DNA of 64,000 bases. Origin: Roseofilum capinflatum BLCC-M114 (GTDB taxonomy: Bacteria; Cyanobacteriota; Cyanobacteriia; Cyanobacteriales; Desertifilaceae). Shown one piece after another: positions 6,646 to 30,408 of the stretch. Made by a program: the position numbers and the translations under genes. The stretch's first letter is position 1. The number at the start of each line of letters is the position of its first letter. Under the pieces are notes generated by a model. That model was not told the origin of the DNA. It did no database searches and was given only the letters and a program-made list of their open reading frames with translations. The stretch spans positions 62,001 to 126,000 of the forward strand of contig NZ_JAQOSO010000101.1 in assembly GCF_030068505.1 (NCBI RefSeq), written 5' to 3'.

Positions 6646-6742
6646 GCCCTGCTTGCCCTGCTTGCCCTGCTTGCCCTGCTTGCCCTGCTTGCCCTGAGCG
6701 AAGTCGAAGGGAGCGAAGTCGAAGGGAGCGAAGTCGAAGGGA
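6646..6742. repeat. Two adjoining short tandem repeats
   Basis: The 9-bp unit GCCCTGCTT occurs five times in perfect tandem at 6646-6690. It is followed by three perfect copies of the 15-bp unit GCGAAGTCGAAGGGA at 6698-6742. Nearby, at about 6758-6790, GGGAGAGGG and its complement make an additional palindrome. The tract sits between two paralogous lipoprotein genes and can be read through in all frames as low-complexity peptide, which explains several spurious open frames here. Confidence 0.9.
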
Positions 6743-6818
6743 GAAGGGGGAAAAGTCCCTCTCCCAGGGGAGAGGGATATAGGGAGAGGGCAACATCGTA
6801 GGTAATAGGTAATGAGTA

Positions 6819-7337
6819 ATGGGTAAGAAGAAAGGGCCAACTGTTTTTTGGTTCTCTATGCTGGTGGTTCTCGGTAACTTGATGGGGTGTAGTTATCCTC
6901 AAGTGCTGGCGGAACCCTACGATCCTAATGGTAAAAGTCTCAATAGTGCCTATAGTGAATCTGACCCCCATGTAGCCGGTCGCTATCTGGTGTTTGCTTC
7001 CGATCGCGGCTTCAGTCAAGATATTTATCTGTATGATTTAGTCGATCGCCGCCTCATCGATCTACCGGGTCTTAATTCTTTGGATATGATTGCTTCTCAT
7101 CCAGATGTTTCTGTAGATGGTCGCTACATCGTGTTTGCTGGTAATCGTCAGGGGGAAACCGATATCTATCTCTACGATCGCTCTCTGCGACAATTACGGA
7201 ATTTAACAGGTGATTTGAATACACAAGTCCAAAATCCCATGTTAAATGCCGATGGGTCTCGAATCGTCTTTGAAGCCAATGCCAAGGGGCAATGGGATAT
7301 TTTCGTCTACAACCGTCGGGGAGAGAGGATCGAGTAA
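6819..7337 (+). CDS. TolB-like beta-propeller lipoprotein, second copy
   Basis: This 172-residue paralogue of the gene at 6052 has a basic start (MGKKKG), a hydrophobic signal core and a lipobox NLMGC with Cys at about residue 24. Three blades follow, including RYLVFASDRGFSQDIYLYDL and RYIVFAGNRQGETDIYLYDR. The two proteins share the closing phrase G-QWD-(V/I). The start was chosen because the lysines directly precede the hydrophobic core as in a normal signal peptide. Role is unknown; the propeller suggests binding to other proteins or to cell-wall material in the periplasm. The gene is bracketed by repeat tracts on both sides. Confidence 0.8.
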   Translation: MGKKKGPTVFWFSMLVVLGNLMGCSYPQVLAEPYDPNGKSLNSAYSESDPHVAGRYLVFASDRGFSQDIYLYDLVDRRLIDLPGLNSLDMIASHPDVSVDGRYIVFAGNRQGETDIYLYDRSLRQLRNLTGDLNTQVQNPMLNADGSRIVFEANAKGQWDIFVYNRRGERIE

Positions 7338-7425
7338 TGGGGAATAGGGAATGGGGAATGGGGAATAGGGAATAGGGAATGGGGAATAGGGAATGGGGAA
7401 TAGGGAATGGGGAATGGGGAATGGG
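7337..7425. repeat. STRR-type tandem repeat (GGGAATA/GGGAATG)
   Basis: About a dozen copies of a 7-bp unit, GGGAATA or GGGAATG, run between the lipoprotein stop and the convergent hli gene. This is the short tandemly repeated repetitive element typical of filamentous cyanobacteria. The tract lies between two converging genes, so it is in a 3' untranslated position for both. Confidence 0.9.
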
Positions 7426-7453
7426 CGATCCTTCCTATCTCCCCATTCTCACC

Positions 7454-7675
7454 TTACTGCCAGCCAATCCACTCAAAGAAGGTTTGTTGACTGACGAATT
7501 CTAGAATTAGGAGGAGAATAATACCGATCATGGCAAAGCGACCATTGAGTTGTTCGGCATAGGTTGTCCAGCCAAAGGAGGGTTCGGAAGGGTTAGGCTC
7601 TGGTTTAGGCGATTCTGGGGGTGATTCTGGTGTAGTAGATTCGGGGGTAGATTCTGGCATGTCTTCAGAACTCAT
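7454..7675 (-). CDS. hli: High-light-inducible protein (small CAB-like protein)
   Basis: This 73-residue protein has a Pro/Glu/Ser-rich N-terminus (about residues 1-35) and a single membrane helix carrying the chlorophyll-binding signature AEQLNGRFAMIGI. The Glu, Asn, Arg and Met positions match the ExxNxRxAM motif of the chlorophyll a/b-binding family. Such proteins sit in thylakoids and protect photosystem II assembly intermediates under stress. The acidic, proline-rich N-terminal extension is longer than in most HLIPs. The gene begins 19 bp after the sdhB-like stop, with TGGAG as ribosome binding site, so it may be co-transcribed with it. Confidence 0.9.
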   Translation of the reverse strand: MSSEDMPESTPESTTPESPPESPKPEPNPSEPSFGWTTYAEQLNGRFAMIGIILLLILEFVSQQTFFEWIGWQ

Positions 7676-7694
7676 AAAACGTCTCCAAAAGGGG

Positions 7695-8681
7695 TTAATC
7701 TGTTGAGGATTCTAAGGTTTTAACCGCTTCAATGAGCGATCGCACTTCATCTGTACCTTCAGAAGGCTCAAACGTAAAGGGGAACTTACTGCGTGCTAAC
7801 AATCTTAGGCCCACGGGAGCCAGACTCAACAGGCCTTTGAGGTCTCGAAAGGCATTACCTACAACCTTGAGGGCAAATTGGCGTTCATCCACCCAACCGC
7901 CCTCTTTAACCATATCTACCAGAATTTTACGATGGCGGATGGGGCGACTCGATTGGGCGGTATGGCGATCGAGAATTTCCCCTTTAATTTTGCTAATTTG
8001 CTCTAAAGGATCGACTTCCATGGGACAAACCGTATCACAATAGAGACATCGGGTGCAGGCCCAAACGCCACGAGTGGCATCATTATATTGGTCTAATCGC
8101 TCTGAAGTTTGACTATCCCGGTTATCGGCTACCATACGATAGGCCTTAGCCAAGGCATGGGGGCCAACAAAATCCGGGTTCACTTCCACGGCATTACATT
8201 CAGAGTAACAAGCACCACAGAGAATACAGTTACCGGTTTTCTCCAGTTGCGATCGCACTTCAGGAGATTGCAAAAACTCCCGTTCTGGAATCGATCTAGA
8301 GGCGGTACTCACATAGGGATCGACCTTTTCCAGGTTATCCCAAAACGATTGCATATCCACCACCAAATCCTTAATCACTGGGAAATTCCCCAAAGGAGCA
8401 ATGGTAATGGTAGGAGGGGAATCCCCTGATGCAGTGGCTTCGAGTTCACTGGCCACATTTTCTTTACAAGCCAGAGCTGAACGTCCATTAATCCGCATTC
8501 CACAACTACCACAGATGGTATTGCGACAATTTTTGCGGAAGGCCAGAGTGCCATCAACTTCCCACTTAATGCGGTTGAGGCAACTTAAGATGGTCTCGCT
8601 CGGATCGACATCCAAGGTGTAATGTTGAACCCTTGGGGCGCTCTTTTGCTCTTGCCGAATGATCTGAAAAACAACTTCCAT
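7695..8681 (-). CDS. sdhB: Succinate dehydrogenase/fumarate reductase iron-sulfur subunit
   Basis: The protein carries the three iron-sulfur cluster motifs of SdhB in order. The [2Fe-2S] ligands lie in CRNTICGSCGMRINGRSALAC, and the two C-terminal ferredoxin-like sites are CILCGACYSEC and CTRCLYCDTVCP. It would pass electrons from succinate to the quinone pool in the thylakoid or plasma membrane. Cyanobacterial members begin close to MEVVFQIIRQ, so I place the start at 8681; the open frame extends 35 codons further to 8786 with unrelated sequence. This gives 328 residues, longer than the classical 240-residue SdhB because of a C-terminal extension, which I also associate with cyanobacterial forms. 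No sdhA is adjacent. Confidence 0.88.
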   Translation of the reverse strand: MEVVFQIIRQEQKSAPRVQHYTLDVDPSETILSCLNRIKWEVDGTLAFRKNCRNTICGSCGMRINGRSALACKENVASELEATASGDSPPTITIAPLGNFPVIKDLVVDMQSFWDNLEKVDPYVSTASRSIPEREFLQSPEVRSQLEKTGNCILCGACYSECNAVEVNPDFVGPHALAKAYRMVADNRDSQTSERLDQYNDATRGVWACTRCLYCDTVCPMEVDPLEQISKIKGEILDRHTAQSSRPIRHRKILVDMVKEGGWVDERQFALKVVGNAFRDLKGLLSLAPVGLRLLARSKFPFTFEPSEGTDEVRSLIEAVKTLESSTD

Positions 8682-9133
8682 GACTTTAGAGGTTTGACTG
8701 AGGATGTCAAGGCATGACTTTATCATTCTACCTTTGCTTCCTGGTTCTGATTCACTTACAAGGGAGAGAGTTGGGCGATCGATCAATCTCGATGGGGCTT
8801 GAGACCGTTTAATCCTACTTGGGTTTTATCCCATCTTCTTATCGTTGACCCCCCTTTTTTCCTATTTAAGCAACAGGGACAGGGAGCATAATCCTAAAAG
8901 GTTCAAGAAAGCCTAAACGAATTCTTTACCCAAACCCTGAAAAAAATAAAAAAACTACAAAAATTTAGTATGATTGTGTAATATAATTGTTAAGTCTGTC
9001 AGGAAAAAGCTGACTTAGACCAACCTAAGAGTGAACTCCAGCAACTCTGAAGCAAGTTTCTTCAGGGTAGTGTGGTTATAGCTCTAAAATGTTGTCTGTG
9101 TTGTTCAAGTCCACCGAAAATTAGGGTATTCAA
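8682..9133. promoter_or_regulatory. Divergent promoter region, sdhB / cyAbrB
   Basis: This gap of about 450 bp lies between divergent genes. TATAAT at 8982-8987 is a good -10 candidate for the cyAbrB gene, within an A/T-rich stretch, but no convincing -35 box is spaced correctly. This would give a leader of roughly 140 nt before the ATG at 9134. The part adjacent to sdhB (8682-8786) is open in the sdhB frame but appears non-coding. I see no RNA gene. Confidence 0.4.
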
Positions 9134-9541
9134 ATGAGCCAAAAGGATTTACAACTTCCTGAAGCACCCTTAACGGGGAAAGCCCTGCTTCAAAAAGTCA
9201 AGGAACTCACCCATCTCTCCCGTAGAGAAAGGGCGAAAAAGTGTGGCTACTATACGAAAAAAGATGAAGACGATATCCGGGTCAATTTGGCTGAATTCTA
9301 TGATGCGGTATTAGCAGCTAGAGGGATCGAGCTTGAGCCGGGTAAATCTAAGGATGGCCGGGGACGAGAGCCAACCTATCGCGTTAGTGTCCATAAAAAT
9401 GGCCAAATTGTGATTGGTTCTACCTATACGGAATCTATGGGTCTAAAGAAAGGGGATGAATTTGAGATTAAATTGGGCTATAAACACATTCACTTGATTC
9501 AAGTGGATGAGGATGATAAAAATGGCTCTGAAGCGGATTAA
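9134..9541 (+). CDS. cyAbrB family transcriptional regulator
   Basis: This 135-residue protein is a cyanobacterial AbrB-like regulator. The N-terminal part has PLTGKALLQKVKELTHLSRR and CGYYTKKDED. The C-terminal half carries the hallmark SKDGRGREPTYRVSVHKNGQ and then LGYKHIHL. In other cyanobacteria, paralogues bind DNA broadly and adjust carbon and nitrogen metabolism, redox genes and heterocyst or hydrogenase genes. In this family the AbrB-like fold is C-terminal, unlike in Bacillus. I cannot tell which of the two usual clades it belongs to. A long AT-rich upstream region suggests its own regulated promoter. Confidence 0.92.
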   Translation: MSQKDLQLPEAPLTGKALLQKVKELTHLSRRERAKKCGYYTKKDEDDIRVNLAEFYDAVLAARGIELEPGKSKDGRGREPTYRVSVHKNGQIVIGSTYTESMGLKKGDEFEIKLGYKHIHLIQVDEDDKNGSEAD

Positions 9542-19915: not shown

Positions 19916-20019
19916 TCAAGACTCAACCCGATCTACCCAGTAATCGGGCTGACGATAGCTATGAGCCACGGCAATAATTTAAACTCTTGAGCTGCGAGGG
20001 GATCGAAAATTACATTCAT
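19916..20019 (-). pseudogene. RelE/ParE-type toxin remnant with internal deletion
   Basis: Directly after the antitoxin, sharing one base with its stop codon (TAATG), an ATG opens MNVIFDPLAAQEFK, which reads as the N-terminus of a RelE/ParE-family toxin. The same frame then runs to a stop after 28 codons. In the +2 frame the sequence continues IIAVAHSYRQPDYWVDRVES and stops at 19916, which is how this toxin family normally ends. About 60 central residues are therefore missing and the two ends are out of frame. The gene should be dead. The deletion is read directly; the full-length form is inferred from family knowledge. Confidence 0.75.
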
Positions 20020-20222
20020 TATTGATAACCCAGCACTTCTGCTGCTGGAATGCCCTTAACTCTTCCAGACTCAAAAGCGGCTAGTCTACGCTCTGCTTCA
20101 TCGTACCAAATTTTATCGATCGCCTCATTTGGGTTCTCAAGACTTGAGTAGATAACATTTAGGAGCCTCATTTTATCTGAAGGACTCAGTTGTAAAACAT
20201 TATCAATCAAAGATTGTTCCAT
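20019..20222 (-). CDS. Addiction module antitoxin (TIGR02574 type)
   Basis: This 67-residue protein matches the putative addiction module component family: a start like LSPSDKMRLLNVIYSSLE, then AIDKIWYDEAERRLAAFESG and a conserved close VKGIPAAEVLGY. Such proteins are antitoxins encoded just upstream of RelE/ParE-type toxins. Its toxin partner here is a deleted remnant, so this antitoxin is an orphan. It might still neutralise a related toxin elsewhere in the genome. Confidence 0.85.
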   Translation of the reverse strand: MEQSLIDNVLQLSPSDKMRLLNVIYSSLENPNEAIDKIWYDEAERRLAAFESGRVKGIPAAEVLGYQ

Positions 20223-20328: not shown

Positions 20329-23300
20329 CTACAGGAATACTTTAAGCAATTTCGCCGCATCGATCATGGAAGGAATGGCTTCTTTCACCTTCCCATCTTT
20401 GAGATAGGTGAGAGCGTCTACCAAGTCATCGACTCCATCAATCATCGATATACCAGATGTAAAGGCCTTGAAGTAGTCGCCGTTTTTGAGGGCTAAACCG
20501 GCGTTGATGGCATGTTTTCCTTCGTCAAAGCCAGCGAGATCAAAGCCGGTTCGTAAGGCTCGGAGATAGTTTCCTTCTTGGATATTCCAGGCCATATCGA
20601 CCCAGGATTGACCCGCTTCAAAATCTGTGAGATTAAATCCGGTTCTCAGAGCGTTGAGATAGTTGCCATTTCCCACATCTCGCACCATACTAATCCAGGG
20701 AGTAGCATCGGTAAATCCAGTTGCCTCAAAGCCTTTGGAGAGCGCGTCTAAATATTCACCGCCTTCAATATGTTGGGCAATGTCAATCCAAGTTTCAGTT
20801 GCACCGAAATCAGCTAACTTAAATCCTGTTGTCAGCGCCTCAGTGTACTGATTATTATCAATTTGTCCAATCAGATTTAACCAGTCGTCACCATCGGGTA
20901 ATTCAGTGGTAGTTAAGGCTTGGGTGAGAGTTTCGATATACTTGCGCTGGTCTATGGCTTCCATCATATTCCCCCATTCTGTAGCCAAGGAGAATGAGGT
21001 TAAACCTAAGCTTTCCTTGAGAGCGTTTAAGTAGTCTTCAGATTGAATAGATTTAGCGACATCGATCCAGTTTTCGACGGTATCAATGGCTCCGTGAAGG
21101 ACGCTACCGATCGCTTGACGGCTGGTTTCCGTTGTGCCTCGCGTCGCTAGAGCAGTGGCGACAGGAGGAGAGACGAGGGAAAGAATAGACCGGAATAGGG
21201 TGTAGTCGCGATCGCCATATCCAAAACTTGGACTGTTCAGTTCGTCCACCGAAAGCGCCGTTAATTTGACTTCAGAGGCTTGGTTTTCCGACTGAATGGC
21301 ATTTGAACCCAAAACCGATAAACTATGCTTCTTAAAGACATTTAAGTTGGGATAGGAAGCTAAAACTGCCCGACCTGGTAGGTATTTTTCGCCCGCCATC
21401 GACACGAGATCGCCGGAGGTAATGTAGTGGGTAGCGCTGTTGGGATTTCCGCCTTGGGTAACAAAGAGTTCGGCAGTATCACTGTCAATTCCAGGAGAAT
21501 TGAACGTGACCACTTCTCCGACTTCCGTGGGGAAATGGGCGGCGATGGTTTGCGCCAAAGCACCGCCGAGACTGTGACCGACGAGATCCACGGGTTGGGT
21601 TTGGGCGGCTAACCAGGCTTGGATTTCAGCTTGATGGGCGCTGAATTGACCGTAGCCGATTCCGTCTGGGTTCGTATCTTCGATAACATCAATCAGAGTT
21701 CCATATTTCTCATCCGTGGGACTGCCTCCGGTTCCGCGCACCGAGAGGACAGGAGGTTGAGTCGGATCGTCGGGAATTAAACCGACAGCGTAGAATCCAG
21801 TGGAGCGATCGTCAATCACGTAATCTACGGTATAACCGCCGTTCACTCGCTCGCCAACCGTGAGTTTATTGCCTCCAGGACTGCTATTGTCTAAGGCGCG
21901 TTCTGGAGTGGCAGAAATCGAACCATCTTCATAGGCAGTACTGCGCGCTAAGTATTCGTACCCTTTATGATGGGCAGGGATAGCTGCCAGGGGAATTTCT
22001 GGGTCTGAGGGGTAGGAATAGTCATCAAACAGAGCTTGACCTAATGCAGTCGCATTTTCTAGTCCGGCGGCATTTAAGGCTTGAATGAAGGCGTTTTTGT
22101 AATTCCCCTCTTTTAAATCCCAAGCGGTATCGATAAAGTCTTGGTATTGGGAGAATCCAGCCGTTTTTAGTCCTGTTTCTAAGGCGGATTTATAGTTTCC
22201 GTCTTTTAAGTCAAAGGCCACATCTACCCAGGTTTTTCCTGCACCCAATCCACTGGCATTAAATGCCGTTTTTAAGGCGCTTTCATAGTCGCCATCTTTG
22301 AGGTCAAAGGCAAGATCGACTAAGGAATTGCTATTGGAGAAACCAGCATAGTTTAATCCGGTTTTGAGTGCTTTGCCGTAGCGGTTATCCGCCATATTCC
22401 AGGCAATATCAATCAGGGTATTGGCTTTTTGTTGTCCAAATCCAGCAAAGGTTAATCCGGTTCCTAATGCCCCTTTATAGTCTCCATCGATAACATCCCA
22501 GGCGATATCGATAAATTTATCGCCATTCTCAAATCCTGCCCCATCTAAACCGGCTTTGAAGATAGATTTCCAGTCTCCATCTTTCATCGACCAGGCGACA
22601 TTAACTAATGTATCTGCCACAGTCTTATTGACGTTAAAATTGGACAAGGTGGCAGAAATAGCACCTTTATAGTCTTTATCCTTGAGTGCCCACGCTACCT
22701 CGACGAAGATATCAATCATTGTAGATGAGATAATAGACCCAGCAGGTGTTAGATCGAGCGCTCCATCAATTGCCGCTTTTAAGACTTCTATCCAGTCTCC
22801 ATTAGCTAAGTGATAGAGGCCTTCTAAGGCACTCACTGCTGTACCGACAAGGGGAATTCGTTTGAGCAGATCTAGGACAGTCTCGACATCAATGGCATCC
22901 AGGGTACTCTTAATACCTTCTCCAATGTCTTCAATAAAACCAGCGACACTATCTGTGACTTTTTCCCAGAAGCTTTTCTTATAGCTGGCGGCTGCTTGCC
23001 GAGATTCCTGGACACGCTGCTCATTTTGGCGTTTAGCTTCTTGGTTAATGACTTCAATTTCTTCATTAATCTCCTTCAACTCAACCGCTTTCTCCTGGAT
23101 TTGCGTTTGCAGCTCTGCCAGCTCCTGCTGACTTTGAACTGTGTACTCTTGGAGATCTTTTTTCAGTTGCTCGATTTCTTTTTTTAATTGTCGAATTTCC
23201 TCAGATTGGGCATCACTTCCACTATCGAGCAAGTCTTTAATTTTTTGTTCTTTTTTCTCAATTTCTTCTCGATCTTGAGTGATTTTCTCTTCCTGTTTAT

Positions 23301-26300
23301 GTTTCTGTTCTTCGTATTCTTCTGTCAGATTTTCAAATTGACTAGCAAGTTTCTGTTGGTTGTGCTGTATGTTTTCCCATTTTGCCTTGAGAGTGTGATT
23401 GATTTCTCTTATCACTCTAATAGTGCCATGTATTCCCACAACATTTGTCTTGCGATCGTCTACCATCCAATAACGTACATATTTAAGTTCGTCGCCGCTT
23501 AATTGACTATTATGATCTGCGGTAATTCGGTTGCCATCTCCTCTGGCTTTTTCTCCATTAGGCCTACCCAATTGATAACCATATTCTCTCCTCCAATGCT
23601 CGCCAACTTCTTGAATATTATGTGACTCATGCCAAGCCCATTCTGATGTGGCTCGTTCTGTAGGTATTGCGAGGTCATTCGTCCAAGTAACGCCAGTTAA
23701 CTGAGACTGGAGAGTTTCATAATAGCTGAATTGGTAAAATTCTGGCCAGTGAACTTTAGGCACATCATGAGACTTGAGGATATCTGTAACCAGCTCATAA
23801 TTACTGGGTTTATAGACTTGAGCTTCGGCTTCTTTGGCGATATAAACGGCTGCGGGAATATTCAGCAGTCCCAAACCGGTTTGAGCATCCCATCCTGGCG
23901 TGTTTAGATCGGTTGCTGTATTCTTGAGAATATCCCTAACTTGAGTATAATTGAGATCCGGATTAGCCGACCACACTAATGAGGCAGCACCCGTTACTTT
24001 GGCAGTAGAAACAGAAGTTCCGGAGGCTCCATTTTTTGCAGTTCCTTGAGCCAGTAAATCGACTCCTTTGCCATAGTAATCATATTCAACATCATTGTAG
24101 CTAGAATATGCTGATCGTTCCCAATCTTCTGCTGCACCAACAACTAAGATATTATCGAATTCTTTCGTTGCTTGTCCCAAAGCGGAAAGAGAGTCTCCTT
24201 GATTCCCTGCTGCGGTGACAATCAAGACATTATTCTGTTGAGCATAAGTCAGCGCTGACCGTTCTAGAGGAGTCAGTTCGTATCGAGTGCTAACGACACC
24301 ATTCGCATCAGTTTCCGTCAAATCGAAACTCAAGTTAACCACAGCATTGGGCTGTTGTGTCTCTCGCACCTGATCGACAAATTCAATCAGGGATTTTGAC
24401 CATTCATTAGAACCAACAGCGCGTCCTAACCAGAGTTGAGATTCTGGATCGATACCGGCAATAACTTCGACAATATCCGTTCCGTGAGGATTGCCTTCAC
24501 CCGGATTCAATAAGGGGTTAAAGTCATTTTCAATCCAGTCTTTTCCGAGGAGAACTTCGGAATTAGAAAATGTATTGACTTCTGGCGCAAATCCAGTATC
24601 AATAACTCCAACTAATGGTGTACCCGCTTTGGGTAATGGCTCTTGAGTGTTATACCATGGCTCTGGATCGGAAAAAATTTTCTGCCAAACTTCTGTTTGC
24701 ATATTGGCATCATCGAGCCATGCATTCCATTCATCCGTTAGTGTTTCTAGCTCATTCTGACTCTGCTGAAACTCTTGGTTTCGCAGAGTTTCTAATTGAT
24801 CCATGCGATCTTGGGCTTGCTCTGCTACTTGAGTTTGAGAAGCTTCTAACTGCTGATAGGAAGCTTCAATGCTATTGAGTTCTTGTTGGATCGATCTGAG
24901 ATAATTTTGCGCCCCACTAATCGACTGGTTGGAATTTGTTTGGAGAGCATTCAATTGAGATTGGGCGGTAGATGAAATCTGATTTTTCAGAGACTTCAAC
25001 GATCTGACTTGACTTTGATAATCACTGACAATTTTATCTTTTTGCTGCTGCAATCTTTGATATTGTTGTTTAATTTCATCTTCGCGATCGCCCAATTCTT
25101 TTCTTTCGATCTGTTGTCTGACATCCTCGGTTTGTCGATCGAGATCGGCGATCGCCCTATTCATGTCTGATTCAGCCGATCGCACCGAACTAGCAATGTC
25201 ACCCTCAAGCTTTGCCACCTGCTTCACCAATGCTTGATGATTGGTTGATAAGGTTTGAGAAATACCAGTAACCTTATCGCCCGTTTGCTTGCGACTTTGA
25301 TGAAGCTCATCTTCTAGCTCAGATAAATTGTCATTAGTTTGGTCTGTGAAGTCCTCGAGTTCTCCAAGTACCTCAGCAAACTCACCATCGAGCCGATCAA
25401 TTTTTGCCTGAGTAGCCGCTTCAATATCAGACAAGTCAGTGTCCAAATTGTCTAAATTAGCTTTTCCTTGGTTGTCAACACCCTCAAATTCCTGGCCCAA
25501 GTCTTTGATGAGGTCGTTAATTAAAGTGGTAGGGAGTGTTGCTGTAAGTTCGGAAGCTTCTGGAGCTTCTGGGGTTGGTGCGGCCTCTTCTTGAGTCTCC
25601 ACCACTTCCGGTTCAACTGACTCGGATGCTACTGGAGTTTCTGGAGTTTCTGGAGTAGGCGAGATCGCCTCTTCTACCTCCTCTTCTGCTTCCAACTCCG
25701 CCAACTCTAAGGCTTCTTGGGCACGAACTTCGGCGATCGCCTCATACACCTCTTCTGGGATAATTTCCCCAAGCTCTGGAGTCTCTGGAGTCACATAAGG
25801 CTTCGCATAAGCCAACAACCCCTTACCCAGATCCGACTCGCGCCAATCATACTCTGGATTAATCACTTCATCCAAATTCACCGCATTTGCTGTTGCGCCG
25901 CGCACTTGGAAAATCAAATCGTTATAATCTGTATCGGAACCGTGATGATCCACTCGCCAATCTTCCATGACAAAGGTATTGCCATCTCCGGTAACATCCG
26001 CTAGTTGTCCCAGGTGATAGGCATCTTCCGGGTTTAAGCTCGACATGGAGAACAAAGGCGCACCGAGTCCTCCCAAGGCTGGATTATCTGCTAGTTTACT
26101 AACCGAGTGTTTCGGGAGTAACATCATACCAAAGCGATCGCCTGGATTCATCGCAAATGTCTTCACCCCGCGATAGTCGCCACTGTTCCAATCTTGTCCT
26201 TCATCGCCCAAAACGCCATCAAATCTGGCTCCTTCAGTGCGATCGGATATAATCACATGACCGAGTTCTGAATTAGATAAAGCGCGAGAGGCAGCTTCTT

Positions 26301-27522
26301 CAATAAACGCCCCAGAATTGGGATTAATCTCTTCCAATCCCTCTAAACTAAATACAGCTAACTCTCCTTTCCACTTCCCACCGTCATAGAGGAAATCAAT
26401 CCCCACTTCTCCACTGTTATCAACCGTAAATACTCCAGAGTCAAACTCTACCGGAGCGATATAGTCAAGTACCTGCTGTCCTACCTCACTGTTGCGCCAA
26501 TCTTCCGCTTCCGGATCGATAACTTCATCTAACGTAACCGCTTCTCCCCTCGCACCATTAACCTGAAAGACCACATCATTGTAATCTCCATCCCTCCAGT
26601 CTTCCACTGTAAAGGTATGACCATCTCCCGTCACATCGGCAAAATTCTCATAGGTTGTATCATTCGAGAAAAATAGGGGTTTACCCGCTTCAAAGGCTTG
26701 TTCAATGGGAGTTTTAGCAGAAATCACCAAGGCAAACTGCTCCCCTGGTTTCATGGAGAAACTATCCACAAACTGATACTCACCCCGATTCCAGTCCTTC
26801 AGTTCCCCGTCCAAAATTCCCGTAAATTTCGCGCCTTCCTCACCATCAGCAATCCCTAAATTTCCTAGCGTAGAATTACTGAGAGCGCGACGCACGGCTG
26901 CCCTTTCCCAAGCTTCCGCATCTCCCTCATAGTCTTCCATCCCCTCCAAACTGAAGATGCCAATCTCACCTTTTGCGTATTTTCCACCATCAATCAAATA
27001 ATCCAGATTGACCTTACCCGTCTCTCCCACCGTAAATACACCATTGGTGGAATTATAGGTAAATGGCTCAGGCTCTGGTTCGGATTCAATTTCTTCTCTG
27101 GCTTCTGTCTCCGAGTCGAGATCGGTAACTAAAGTGGTCACTTCCAGCTCTAGTTCTAACTCTGAATCCGGCTCTACATCCGGCTCTAAAGCTGGCTCTG
27201 GTTCTGCTTCTCCCTCAGTCTCAGCATAAAAGAATTCCAAGGGTTCAATGTCTTCATCGTCAATTTCATCGATAATTTCCGAGTCTTCCGAGGTGCTACT
27301 CGTCTCTTGCTCTTCAGATTCACCCGACTCTTCGAGCTGCTGCTCTTCAGGAATTTCAAACTCATCCAAGGAGTCAACCTCCAACTCCCCACTGCCCACT
27401 TCTCCCTCAAGACCCGTCACACCACTGGGTGTAAGAATTGGTTCCAAGATAAATGTTTTACCTGACAACGAATTCGATAGGAAAGATTGCTTATTTTTGC
27501 GTAAACCTTGGAACCAATTCAT
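20329..27522 (-). CDS. Giant modular subtilisin/lipase repeat protein, probably exported
   Basis: This 2397-residue protein has no Sec signal. A short basic N-terminus contains SGKTFILEPILTPSGVTG, followed by an acidic region (40-150). Two DUF4114-like domains (about 155-350 and 358-575) each end in a calcium-site-like DVTGDG followed by DYND. A second acidic, Pro-rich linker (about 575-690) leads to a long coiled coil (about 690-960). The subtilisin (S8) domain, about 965-1240, has the full triad Asp975, His1013 and Ser1170, plus oxyanion Asn1107. A second coiled coil spans about 1375-1515. Eight 31-residue repeats (about 1555-1838) precede a class-3 lipase-like domain with GHSLGG (Ser1984), and seven or eight more repeats finish the protein. 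It lies just downstream of a PPIase gene. Export, perhaps by a type I route, is inferred from the acidic calcium-type domains and the lack of cysteines or Sec signal. Biological target unknown. Confidence 0.9.
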   Translation of the reverse strand: MNWFQGLRKNKQSFLSNSLSGKTFILEPILTPSGVTGLEGEVGSGELEVDSLDEFEIPEEQQLEESGESEEQETSSTSEDSEIIDEIDDEDIEPLEFFYAETEGEAEPEPALEPDVEPDSELELELEVTTLVTDLDSETEAREEIESEPEPEPFTYNSTNGVFTVGETGKVNLDYLIDGGKYAKGEIGIFSLEGMEDYEGDAEAWERAAVRRALSNSTLGNLGIADGEEGAKFTGILDGELKDWNRGEYQFVDSFSMKPGEQFALVISAKTPIEQAFEAGKPLFFSNDTTYENFADVTGDGHTFTVEDWRDGDYNDVVFQVNGARGEAVTLDEVIDPEAEDWRNSEVGQQVLDYIAPVEFDSGVFTVDNSGEVGIDFLYDGGKWKGELAVFSLEGLEEINPNSGAFIEEAASRALSNSELGHVIISDRTEGARFDGVLGDEGQDWNSGDYRGVKTFAMNPGDRFGMMLLPKHSVSKLADNPALGGLGAPLFSMSSLNPEDAYHLGQLADVTGDGNTFVMEDWRVDHHGSDTDYNDLIFQVRGATANAVNLDEVINPEYDWRESDLGKGLLAYAKPYVTPETPELGEIIPEEVYEAIAEVRAQEALELAELEAEEEVEEAISPTPETPETPVASESVEPEVVETQEEAAPTPEAPEASELTATLPTTLINDLIKDLGQEFEGVDNQGKANLDNLDTDLSDIEAATQAKIDRLDGEFAEVLGELEDFTDQTNDNLSELEDELHQSRKQTGDKVTGISQTLSTNHQALVKQVAKLEGDIASSVRSAESDMNRAIADLDRQTEDVRQQIERKELGDREDEIKQQYQRLQQQKDKIVSDYQSQVRSLKSLKNQISSTAQSQLNALQTNSNQSISGAQNYLRSIQQELNSIEASYQQLEASQTQVAEQAQDRMDQLETLRNQEFQQSQNELETLTDEWNAWLDDANMQTEVWQKIFSDPEPWYNTQEPLPKAGTPLVGVIDTGFAPEVNTFSNSEVLLGKDWIENDFNPLLNPGEGNPHGTDIVEVIAGIDPESQLWLGRAVGSNEWSKSLIEFVDQVRETQQPNAVVNLSFDLTETDANGVVSTRYELTPLERSALTYAQQNNVLIVTAAGNQGDSLSALGQATKEFDNILVVGAAEDWERSAYSSYNDVEYDYYGKGVDLLAQGTAKNGASGTSVSTAKVTGAASLVWSANPDLNYTQVRDILKNTATDLNTPGWDAQTGLGLLNIPAAVYIAKEAEAQVYKPSNYELVTDILKSHDVPKVHWPEFYQFSYYETLQSQLTGVTWTNDLAIPTERATSEWAWHESHNIQEVGEHWRREYGYQLGRPNGEKARGDGNRITADHNSQLSGDELKYVRYWMVDDRKTNVVGIHGTIRVIREINHTLKAKWENIQHNQQKLASQFENLTEEYEEQKHKQEEKITQDREEIEKKEQKIKDLLDSGSDAQSEEIRQLKKEIEQLKKDLQEYTVQSQQELAELQTQIQEKAVELKEINEEIEVINQEAKRQNEQRVQESRQAAASYKKSFWEKVTDSVAGFIEDIGEGIKSTLDAIDVETVLDLLKRIPLVGTAVSALEGLYHLANGDWIEVLKAAIDGALDLTPAGSIISSTMIDIFVEVAWALKDKDYKGAISATLSNFNVNKTVADTLVNVAWSMKDGDWKSIFKAGLDGAGFENGDKFIDIAWDVIDGDYKGALGTGLTFAGFGQQKANTLIDIAWNMADNRYGKALKTGLNYAGFSNSNSLVDLAFDLKDGDYESALKTAFNASGLGAGKTWVDVAFDLKDGNYKSALETGLKTAGFSQYQDFIDTAWDLKEGNYKNAFIQALNAAGLENATALGQALFDDYSYPSDPEIPLAAIPAHHKGYEYLARSTAYEDGSISATPERALDNSSPGGNKLTVGERVNGGYTVDYVIDDRSTGFYAVGLIPDDPTQPPVLSVRGTGGSPTDEKYGTLIDVIEDTNPDGIGYGQFSAHQAEIQAWLAAQTQPVDLVGHSLGGALAQTIAAHFPTEVGEVVTFNSPGIDSDTAELFVTQGGNPNSATHYITSGDLVSMAGEKYLPGRAVLASYPNLNVFKKHSLSVLGSNAIQSENQASEVKLTALSVDELNSPSFGYGDRDYTLFRSILSLVSPPVATALATRGTTETSRQAIGSVLHGAIDTVENWIDVAKSIQSEDYLNALKESLGLTSFSLATEWGNMMEAIDQRKYIETLTQALTTTELPDGDDWLNLIGQIDNNQYTEALTTGFKLADFGATETWIDIAQHIEGGEYLDALSKGFEATGFTDATPWISMVRDVGNGNYLNALRTGFNLTDFEAGQSWVDMAWNIQEGNYLRALRTGFDLAGFDEGKHAINAGLALKNGDYFKAFTSGISMIDGVDDLVDALTYLKDGKVKEAIPSMIDAAKLLKVFL

Positions 27523-28511: not shown

Positions 28512-29447
28512 CTATTCTTCTGGCTCGGATTGTGGTATAAATCGGGCTAATAGCTCTTCACGAGACAATTGTAGAACCAGAGGGGTAAATTCTTCTGAAG
28601 GCAGGGCGGCTATTCGCCCTACAATAGCAGCCAGTTCTTCATCCACTTCTCCAAACCGAACCTGCAAGAGATTGGTTATGAAGCGCACAGTGGCTTGCTC
28701 TTCTCCCTCTTGCCGTCCCTCTTGCCGTCCTTCTTGCCGTCCTTCTTCGCGCAGTTGGGCGATCGCTTCTTCATAGAGTTGAGTTAAAGTCACGATTAGC
28801 TCCTCATCATCTCGATCTGCTTCTTGGTTTTGCCTGGTGGCTAAAATAGTTAAAAGCTCGTACACCAATTTTATCACATTCGCTCGCCAGCGATTCCCTT
28901 TAGGTAAGGCTTCAAGTTCTCGAATGGCTTGCTGTTGGACTCTTCCGCGTCCTAGGAGTCTCAACCATAACGTCTCAGGAGTGCGAGGGAGTTGATGAAT
29001 CACTACAATCCCAGTTCTGTAGATTTCGCTTAACAGATACACTCCTGACGGCCAATTCTCTGCCTCTTTCCCATGAACTCCTTTGAGCAAATTGGGAGAT
29101 GCGGTTGGGGTTAAGATCCACAACTTGGCCAGTTCATCTTCCTCTAATTTTCTGCTCTCGGTCTCTCGTTCCTGTTTCGCTTGCAGTACCAAGAGTTTCA
29201 GTAAACAAGTGCGAAAGTCATGGGCGGTTATGGGATTACGAAAGGGTTCAAAGATTGCCGGAGTTGCCGTGAGTTGCCCTAATAATCCCAGTTCACTGGC
29301 ATCAAGTTCGGAGGTGGATGGGGTAAAGAAAACATCAACCTGGCGAACTTCTGAGGCAATATCTTTGCTGGTTTCTACTGTGCCAAAAGAGGAGAGCATT
29401 TCACTTAGATATTGTTTGGCAAATTGGTCATGGATGAATCTGGTCAC
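28512..29447 (-). CDS. DUF4351-type cyanobacterial protein (Rpn-like)
   Basis: This protein belongs to a large cyanobacterial family annotated as DUF4351 or Rpn-like putative nucleases. The N-terminal part has TRFIHDQFAKQYLSEML and SEVRQVDVFFTPST. A three-fold tandem GRQEG separates it from a C-terminal module, RFGEVDEELAAIVGRIAALP followed by SREELLARF. I place the start at a GTG at 29447, where family members begin; the open frame continues 39 codons upstream to 29564 but would overlap the divergent gene at 29506. Length from the GTG is 311 residues. Function is unknown; a nuclease role is only suggested by the family. The C-terminal module recurs in the GUN4 protein at 34554. Confidence 0.75.
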   Translation of the reverse strand: MTRFIHDQFAKQYLSEMLSSFGTVETSKDIASEVRQVDVFFTPSTSELDASELGLLGQLTATPAIFEPFRNPITAHDFRTCLLKLLVLQAKQERETESRKLEEDELAKLWILTPTASPNLLKGVHGKEAENWPSGVYLLSEIYRTGIVVIHQLPRTPETLWLRLLGRGRVQQQAIRELEALPKGNRWRANVIKLVYELLTILATRQNQEADRDDEELIVTLTQLYEEAIAQLREEGRQEGRQEGRQEGEEQATVRFITNLLQVRFGEVDEELAAIVGRIAALPSEEFTPLVLQLSREELLARFIPQSEPEE

Positions 29448-29505
29448 GATCGCCGATGGTGCAAGTTGGATCAGAGCTATTGTATCAGGAGAACGATAAT
29501 GGCGC

Positions 29506-30408
29506 TTGTGTATAACTATGATTTGGCAATCTAAGAAACTGGGGAAAATCGCCTTAATAATCATCGCCCTGTTGCTGGGAATTCCTGGGGGAATTTATGG
29601 GATTTTATTACTCTCGCGTCCGGCTCGAACTCCCTTGGTCGAGGAACTGTTTCCGGGAGTGACCTATACTCGTTTGATTCGCTCAACCCCTCGTCCGTTG
29701 GTGATTCATCAAGTCAAAATTGATTTAAGTACGGCTCAAATGCAACCCTTGGTCACTCCAGGCGATTCGCAAGCTGATGGTATGGAAATTAGCGCTCGCA
29801 CGACTTCGGAGTTTGTGCGGGAATTGGGGGTACAGTTGGCGATCAATGGCAGTTTTTTCTATCCGTTTGAGGCGAAGTCCCCTTGGCAAGTTTATCCTGA
29901 ATCGGGCGATCGCGTGCGAATTTCTGGCCAGGCGATCGCCAATGGGATCGAATATTCCCCAGTCAATGGGGGTTGGCCGGTTCTGTGTTTCCTCTCTTCT
30001 CCTCGCGCAGTCATTCCCGGTAGCGATGCTTGTCCCCCAGATACGCAACAGGGAATTGCTGGAGGCACTATTTTAATTTGGGATGGGGAAGCGGTTCCCT
30101 TAAGTTCGGGGTCATTTTATGATGATGCTTATCCTCGGACGGCGATCGGATTGGATGCATCGGGAACTCAGGTGTTTATTCTGGTCGTAGATGGCCGTCA
30201 ACGGTTTTATAGTGAGGGGATGGCTTTACCAGAATTACAAGCGCTGTTTGTGGAATTAGGAGTAGAAACGGCCTTAAATTTAGATGGCGGTGGATCAACC
30301 ACTTTGGTGGTTGCCGATCCTCATCTTAGGGTTCTTAATGCACCCATTCACACTCGTATTCCCCTGCGTCAGCGTGCGGTGGGCAATCATTTGGGGTTTA
30401 AAGACTGA
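29506..30408 (+). CDS. Phosphodiester glycosidase family protein (NAGPA-like, DUF2233)
   Basis: This 300-residue protein has an N-terminal membrane anchor or signal (about residues 10-32) and an exported domain of the NAGPA/DUF2233 type. Recognisable pieces are LAINGSFFYPF, RTAIGLDASGTQVFILVVDG and ALNLDGGGSTTLVV, the last being the family hallmark. Related enzymes cut N-acetylglucosamine phosphodiesters; bacterial members may act on wall or spore polysaccharides. The precise substrate is unknown. It faces the DUF4351 gene head to head and converges on ureG. Confidence 0.88.
   Translation: MCITMIWQSKKLGKIALIIIALLLGIPGGIYGILLLSRPARTPLVEELFPGVTYTRLIRSTPRPLVIHQVKIDLSTAQMQPLVTPGDSQADGMEISARTTSEFVRELGVQLAINGSFFYPFEAKSPWQVYPESGDRVRISGQAIANGIEYSPVNGGWPVLCFLSSPRAVIPGSDACPPDTQQGIAGGTILIWDGEAVPLSSGSFYDDAYPRTAIGLDASGTQVFILVVDGRQRFYSEGMALPELQALFVELGVETALNLDGGGSTTLVVADPHLRVLNAPIHTRIPLRQRAVGNHLGFKD

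Follow-up and report, generated by a model that had tools for sequence, protein, structure and literature searches.

Daptide precursors carry the leader motif ELExMEAP, and in these systems recognition elements for ribosomally synthesized and post-translationally modified peptides (RiPPs), known as RREs, are found fused to a site-2 protease (PMC10036551). In that study, modification by MpaB and MpaC, which relies on the RRE domain of MpaB, was lost with L(-7)A and with M(-4)A, and MpaP is the RRE-dependent intramembrane protease that removes the daptide leader (PMC10036551). The M50 enzyme of the epipeptides, EpeP/LiaK, is thought to perform both cleavage and export (PMC10885120), and a survey of polymorphic toxins, as far as its available sections go, places subtilisin among the processing proteases and describes an alpha/beta-hydrolase toxin closest to lipases (PMC3482391). 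Here we analyze a giant open reading frame (ORF) of the cyanobacterium Roseofilum capinflatum BLCC-M114 that combines a subtilisin (S8) domain with a lipase-like domain, together with the leader family to which it belongs. The ORF lies in a stretch of 64,000 nucleotides (contig NZ_JAQOSO010000101.1, positions 62,001 to 126,000), referred to as the window.

A leader shared by giant proteins with variable C-termini

The ORF occupies window positions 20329-27522 on the minus strand, begins with ATG, has zero internal stops and encodes a single uninterrupted chain of 2397 residues (P0001), confirming what an earlier sequence-only reading had described. Its leader, TFILEPILTPSG (once ending in ...PSA), occurs at nine places in the same genome, the window's included, and eleven residues, TFILEPILTPS, are identical across all nine. 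The leader follows a short head and is succeeded by an acidic linker, DUF4114, S8 and a C-terminus that differs among the paralogues, with LysM and M23 in C55, FG-GAP and a weaker M23 in C2, and a long coiled coil with a hydrophobic end in C102; further leader proteins of this genome reach 4479 and 5404 residues. In the C2 paralogue (L024) the leader lies in another frame than the main ORF, with a frame break in the linker. The window ORF belongs to a polymorphic family of the form leader-linker-DUF4114-S8-variable C-terminus. We call it the FILEP leader family and define it here by a leader of this type before an acidic linker, as P0001 has; like the polymorphic toxins, it joins a conserved N-terminus to variable enzymatic C-termini. 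The earlier statement that the domain order is unlike any known protein was too strong, and the idea of a unique chimera can be rejected: the leader recurs at eight other places in the genome, and relatives exist in other cyanobacterial families.

Of 388 genomes in the class, 20 have the leader according to a model built from the leaders of this genome alone (A1), and 21 according to a wider model (A3), which includes leaders discovered beside M50 genes. Since 38 of the 44 A3 matches are on frames of at least 600 residues, these are not the short precursors of a RiPP. A strict leader pattern within the first 130 residues marks 33 of 105 long ORFs (600 residues or more), 2 of 566 shorter ones and none of 13,420 shuffled N-termini; with a looser pattern the counts are 41 long ORFs, 2 shorter ones and 22 shuffled N-termini. 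These counts cover the ORFs of fetched loci, some of which were fetched for their leader, and they therefore inform only through the size bias and the comparison with shuffles. Across 27 aligned leaders, L26, E27, T31 and P32 are invariant and I29 is present in at least 90%; past the motif, the next 60 residues of the leader ORFs have net charges from -6 to -28.

Among the complete, long leader ORFs from other genomes, all 21 match DUF4114 and S8, six have M23, four CHAP, eight SH3_3 and four LysM. This set excludes L104 (a run of N), L116, L119, L120 and L100:18173 (cut at an end), L113 and L115 (leader missed by the regular expression), and L122 and L099:10638, which have a leader and in which neither a DUF4114 nor an S8 motif was seen. 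The pair of domains is not universal among leader ORFs, because these last two show neither, L137 lacks both by Pfam and L138 lacks both by motif. The C-terminus of L135 combines Amidase_3 and CHAP, and the ORF after L110 (G369) has a calpain domain (E 2.9e-19) and is followed by a PpiC gene. L107 (G287, another family) is an independent leader-DUF4114-S8 protein of 1435 residues with a lipase-like domain, for which Lipase_3 reaches 21.3 bits against a cut-off of 22; its SH3_3 match is also weak and under the cut-off.

M50 and HlyD-like genes in leader genomes

Genomes with the leader usually carry a gene for an M50 site-2-type intramembrane protease related to the daptide protease, often near a leader gene and often next to a gene for an HlyD-like membrane-fusion protein. 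In the recurring neighbor pair, one protein has ∼480 residues and M50 motifs and the other is HlyD-like, by Pfam for two of each kind. A2, the M50 model, derives from five leader neighbors and the copy in the R. capinflatum genome and therefore leans to that subfamily; it detects M50 in 26 of the 388 genomes. M50 is present in 18 of 21 leader genomes versus 8 of 367 others (Fisher p 5e-22) and, counted by genus, in 13 of 16 leader genera versus 7 of 144 others (p 9e-12); with A1, 17 of the 20 leader genomes have it. Leader and M50 share a contig in 14 genomes; the nearest gap does not exceed 5 kb in 11 of these and 12 kb in 13. Of the 27 M50 places in the fetched loci, chosen by similarity and not by motif, 26 keep HExxH and NPxxxxDG; at 20 an HlyD-like match lies no more than 2.5 kb away. 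The two proteins are fused in G151 (L147:778-3249), where an 823-residue ORF matches NF041824 at 68-368 and type_I_hlyD at 477-733. R. capinflatum has a single M50 gene (C26:5183-6616) with HlyD at 6672-8126.

The R. capinflatum M50 protein matches the daptide protease model NF041824 with E 2.9e-34 and 118.8 bits, below the equivalog cut-off of 300; judged by these scores it is a relative of that equivalog and not a member. Aligned by eye over a short stretch, daptide positions E(-8) L(-7) D(-6) P(-5) M(-4) E(-3) P(-1) stand opposite I25 L26 E27 P28 I29 L30 P32, so that the leader appears to resemble the daptide motif (ILEPILTP compared with ELExMEAP). Two giant ORFs beside an M50 gene, L137 and L138, have the leader-like variants FPLDENISPSVLIGG and HGLDDIISPSVLVGG. 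No description of the pairing of M50, HlyD and leader appeared among the openly licensed papers listed, which does not establish its absence from print. The shared leader, which is not visible from a single sequence window, and the associated M50-HlyD pair carry most of the novelty of this locus.

Domains and conservation of the window protein

The features of P0001 are collected in Table 1. PF13448 (DUF4114) matches with E 2.6e-27 (96 bits against a cut-off of 27) in two stretches, the best at 458-542, and Peptidase_S8 matches with E 2e-22 (80.3 bits against 21.8). The subtilisin residues lie in the contexts VIDTG (D975), HGTD (H1013) and GTSVS (S1170), and PDB matches to this domain include the alkaline serine protease 1v6c (E 2.2e-16) and subtilisin BPN' (E 9e-15). 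The lipase nucleophile, S1984, sits in GHSLGG; D2038 (TSGDLVS) and H2066 (KKHSLS) probably complete its triad. All four of the active-site residues named by the sequence-only reading are where it had placed them. Among solved structures, the lipase-like domain is nearest in sequence to a lactonizing lipase (9g8u, E 0.0019) and a type VI secretion system (T6SS) lipase effector (7ubz, E 0.0041). In homologues at 25 loci, 24 of them distinct since L052 and L107 are one place, Ser is kept in 24, Asp in 24 and His in 14; for the 11 loci without the His, the alignment stopped early in six and shows a gap or shift in others. The repeats, previously put at about fifteen, number 16 by two pattern lists, eight before and eight after the lipase with a spacing of mostly 31-33 residues, and the two blocks align to each other in BLASTP (E 4e-24). 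The two coiled coils of that reading have counterparts in profile matches at ∼660-930 and 1370-1530, which are weak.

Table 1. Features of the giant ORF and the adjoining PpiC gene, in window coordinates
Feature	Position	Strand	Basis or remark
PpiC-type peptidyl-prolyl isomerase gene, 255 residues	27587..28354	-	upstream of the giant ORF, 64-bp gap
Giant exoenzyme ORF (putative), 2397 residues (P0001)	20329..27522	-	ORF reading; R. halophilum orthologue L096
Leader motif FILEPILTPSG, residues 24-34	27421..27453	-	predicted cut after P32, from daptide numbering
Strongly acidic linker, residues 35-155	27058..27420	-	net charge -26 over ∼60 residues past the motif
Region with two DUF4114 stretches, residues 156-572, bounds approximate	25807..27057	-	Pfam PF13448
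First coiled-coil-like region, residues 690-930, bounds approximate	24733..25455	-	weak coiled-coil family matches
Subtilisin (S8) domain, residues 969-1218, D975/H1013/S1170	23869..24618	-	Pfam, PDB matches, triad
Second coiled-coil-like region, residues 1370-1530, bounds approximate	22933..23415	-	coiled-coil-type matches
Repeat block 1, residues 1572-1835, 8 units, G[DN]YxxAL-type motif	22018..22809	-	pattern count, BLASTP
Lipase-like alpha/beta hydrolase, residues 1841-2100, S1984 with probable D2038/H2066	21223..22002	-	profile and homologue matches
Repeat block 2, residues 2150-2397, 8 units reaching the C-terminus	20332..21075	-	pattern count, BLASTP

The independent assembly of R. halophilum BLCC-M91 (L096) holds a full-length orthologue of 2332 residues with the same domain order and a PpiC gene upstream, and the possibility of an assembly artefact, which the sequence-only reading had raised against itself, is therefore rejected. 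Both triads are preserved in this orthologue, so the loss of active-site residues of which that reading had also warned is absent here, and occurs in part of the wider family, as described below. Besides this orthologue, the G287 relative joins leader, DUF4114 and S8 to a lipase-like domain, with Lipase_3 under its cut-off, and the architecture is not unique. Among five congeneric genomes the match is full-length in G390 only; those in G388, G389, G391 and G392 stop short of the lipase.

Compared with the R. halophilum orthologue, the ratio of nonsynonymous to synonymous substitution rates (dN/dS) is 0.29 for the whole protein and 0.10-0.34 across six segments, with 0.18 for S8 and 0.15 for the lipase; two middle segments are saturated and gave no value. 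In 100-residue windows, identity is 88-96% over the first 600 residues and 64-92% over 1601-2397, and in the middle region it is 16-49%, save 62-74% at 1001-1200 and 61% at 1501-1600; over residues 601-1000, which take in the first coiled-coil-like region, it is 26-40%. Synonymous divergence amounts to 0.23 in the leader region and to 0.4-0.6 in DUF4114, the repeats and the lipase, but reaches 1.5, close to saturation, in S8. Because the S8 value so far exceeds the others, a middle module has probably been exchanged.

Neighboring genes

The PpiC gene is a conserved neighbor within the Roseofilum pair. Elsewhere near leader genes, PpiC-related ORFs were found as one G369 gene (L110), and the C52 cluster of R. 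capinflatum also has one. With related ORFs confined to these few loci, we reject PpiC as a general partner of leader genes. The interval between PpiC and the giant gene holds one promoter-like site (11 of 12 matches); the promoter and terminator scan as a whole is at chance level (17 versus 14.0 expected, and 9 versus 9.9). Downstream, a 67-residue ORF at window 20019-20222 on the minus strand matches Unstab_antitox, a putative addiction module component (E 8.6e-14). The ORF at window 28512-29564, also on the minus strand, has a match under the cut-off to TIGR01784 (Rpn nuclease/transposase) and looks related to ORFs starting with MTRQPHDQFAKQYLKELLEP... that recur near leader genes of the same genome (L023, L025, L029). 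Amino-acid-transporter-like ATPases occur near the C69 leader gene (L023), and L031 (C55:10000-29999) holds a PCAT-type (peptidase-containing) C39 ATP-binding cassette (ABC) exporter with an upstream HlyD-looking ORF and two similar putative peptide precursors of 90-91 residues.

Discussion

The reading that we favor, at a probability of roughly 55%, is that P0001 is a polymorphic exoenzyme, possibly a bacteriolytic one; the M50-HlyD pair would cut its leader and perhaps also export it, and its subtilisin would free the lipase. PpiC would hold the giant chain in an export-competent state. The N-terminal part of the M50 protein, which may have an RRE (PqqD-like) fold, would bind the LEPIxTP motif, and the M50 site would cleave after ...LTP32. 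The chain would exit through an envelope conduit that includes HlyD and is powered by an ATPase. Once outside the cell, the subtilisin would cut the linkers and release the repeat-lipase part, which would attack the lipids of neighboring bacteria or other targets. In R. capinflatum the single M50-HlyD pair would have to serve all paralogues in trans. The payloads of the family (wall hydrolases, lipase and calpain) are, from their domain matches, what might be expected of bacteriolytic exoenzymes, and remodeling of the producer's own envelope stands as the alternative. The earlier suggestion of an exported effector that its own protease would process fits these findings; taken as a whole, the earlier interpretation is partly supported and the observation beneath it is confirmed.

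We are more tentative about a further proposal, to which we give somewhat less than even odds, namely that the leader marks a dedicated cyanobacterial export route in which giant enzymes with exchangeable lytic payloads would carry a RiPP-like L-E-P-I-x-T-P leader that is read by an RRE-like domain, cut by a site-2 protease and passed through an HlyD conduit. As part of this same tentative proposal, the M50-HlyD fusion could represent a compact form of the route.

Several observations weigh against the favored reading. At the level of the enzymes, Abhydrolase_1 (E 5.9e-5, 23.3 bits against 25.8), Lipase_3 (E 1.9e-3, 18.5 bits against 22) and Abhydrolase_6 (E 2.1e-4) all fall short of their Pfam cut-offs on P0001, and AlphaFold2 gave low confidence, with a mean predicted local distance difference test score of 38.3 from a single sequence and 32.3 from two. 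The S8 triad is kept in 17 of the 21 relatives and lost in 4, and paralogue C69 has Glu in place of the S8 Ser; because of these losses, self-processing cannot be general. The match of the M50 N-terminus to PqqD is weak (hhalign P 8e-4, probability 25%, or 29.9% with a narrower cut, over 19 columns), although column shuffles gave P 0.15-0.40, and its best PDB match, PqqD 3g2b, has E 0.059; an RRE identity is suggestive only. Downstream of the window gene no clear immunity gene is seen, just the Unstab_antitox ORF and smaller frames.

The association is also incomplete. M50 was not detected in the leader genomes G018, G182 and G326, just 14 of 35 leader matches outside R. capinflatum are within 12 kb of an M50 gene, and the nearest gap in G184 is 2.2 Mb. 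The R. capinflatum pair on C26 adjoins no leader gene found. In the M50-HlyD pair itself no ATPase was seen. Seven of the 27 M50 places have no nearby HlyD-like match, two of them (L107, L108) being cut at an end, and in L142 (G378, 7966-9387) the second zinc-site motif is lost (NPLAKFDS); G378 carries another M50 with both zinc motifs. Eight genomes have M50 without the leader. In G339 and G056 the match is limited to the first 190 model positions and lacks the protease part. In G036 and G050 a DUF4114-S8 giant adjoining M50 carries the variant LERLNTPS; in G252 the variant is more distant and its giant has neither DUF4114 nor S8, as is also the case in G205, which was counted as leader-positive. 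No such giant was seen in the loci of 4.2, 7.7 and 16 kb from G003, G028 and G171, respectively.

The alternative that survives best, although we consider it rather unlikely, is that the family consists of surface or matrix enzymes acting on the producer's own envelope, filament or mat, for instance in wall turnover, gliding or hormogonium release. M23, CHAP, Amidase_3, LysM, SH3_3 and lectin domains, all present in the family, are also found in housekeeping wall enzymes, and the lack of a clear immunity gene downstream of the window gene is in keeping with this view. However, lipase and calpain are not wall enzymes, the C-termini are many and exchangeable, and presence is patchy, with an orthologue in just one of the five congeners. 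The high synonymous divergence of S8 is likewise what module exchange would produce.

It is less likely still that P0001 is a type I substrate of the common exporter in which a cyclic nucleotide monophosphate-binding (cNMP) domain, a C39 peptidase and an ABC transporter are combined and which acts with HlyD, leaving the M50-HlyD pair as a bystander or a partial contributor. The C52 cluster of R. capinflatum encodes PpiC, the cNMP-C39-ABC protein and HlyD, and its PpiC is related to P0004 (28-29%). A 2439-residue protein of G239 (L130:3118-10437) that has similar C-terminal repeats and no FILEP leader lies beside an ABC fragment and HlyD, and in G155 a leader gene is closely followed, on its own strand, by an ABC ATPase-domain ORF (L106:4229-5038). 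Whereas M50 tracks the leader, the cNMP-C39-ABC protein is present in 322 of 388 genomes (E <=1e-150), and because it is so common its presence says nothing about the leader. None of the 504 ORFs compared (loci L134-L149 excluded) places a full-length C39-ABC beside a leader gene, and P0001 has no Pfam match to RTX nonapeptide repeats up to E 1. Membership in the RTX/type I secretion class is therefore unsupported; the cNMP-C39-ABC exporter may still be the ATPase that drives the leader proteins. That S8 and lipase are remnants without enzymatic role in a structural giant protein is very improbable, since the sub-threshold lipase matches and the four relatives without an S8 triad, which would favor it, are set against the conservation of both triads in R. 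halophilum, the low dN/dS of the two domains, and the retention of lipase Ser and Asp in 24 of 25 loci each.

How cyanobacteria export giant proteins that lack an obvious signal peptide is poorly understood, and the pairing described here hints at an undescribed way of releasing giant enzymes. Tag, protease and adaptor track one another across distant lineages, and a secretion or processing pathway is therefore testable with one reporter and two knockouts. If the favored reading is true, RiPP-style leader recognition would extend from peptides to proteins of thousands of residues, lytic exoenzymes could be sought by their leader, and competition tools of this kind might be suspected in Roseofilum and other mat formers. 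The relative R. reptotaenium is described as dominating coral black band disease mats.

Comparison with known systems

Stand-alone cyanobacterial lipase-like proteins share the hydrolase domain (28-54% identity where aligned, with Ser and Asp mostly unchanged) and differ in size, with frames of mostly ∼250-780 residues. In Oscillatoria acuminata, DUF4114 is listed with a C2 peptidase (calpain), as in L110 with its downstream calpain ORF; the accessible part of that source lists the domain pair alone and mentions neither leader nor S8 (PMC4631099). The available text of a Roseofilum exoprotein paper (PMC9967302) and of a review of tripartite exporters (PMC8277102) holds nothing relevant to the question of giants and leaders. 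Polymorphic toxins have a common N-terminus and exchangeable C-terminal enzymatic domains, as the leader family does (PMC3482391), whereas P0001 has zero Pfam match to HINT, RHS or components of type V, VI or VII secretion systems (T5SS, T6SS, T7SS) and no clear immunity gene, and its leader and candidate exporter are different ones.

The nearer comparisons are with leader proteases. TmcP, the TMcin protease, is a site-2-family intramembrane protease that removes a leader site-specifically, but it belongs to the DUF3267 branch, has four helices and acts on a short membrane peptide (PMC13252029, a preprint, as far as its accessible text goes). EpeP/LiaK is an M50 enzyme, and the R. capinflatum M50 protein matches its model NF058609 with E 3.5e-12, under the model cut-off; the substrate of EpeP is a small peptide, and the accessible part of the source describes no HlyD with it (PMC10885120). 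The daptide system, as far as its published description was available, differs from this locus in its short peptide substrates, where the substrates here are mostly of 600-5400 residues, and here there is an HlyD partner and a protease score that does not reach 300 bits. The two systems share a related M50 intramembrane protease, an N-terminal leader of the form L-[DE]-x-[MI]-x-x-P and genes that often lie close together.

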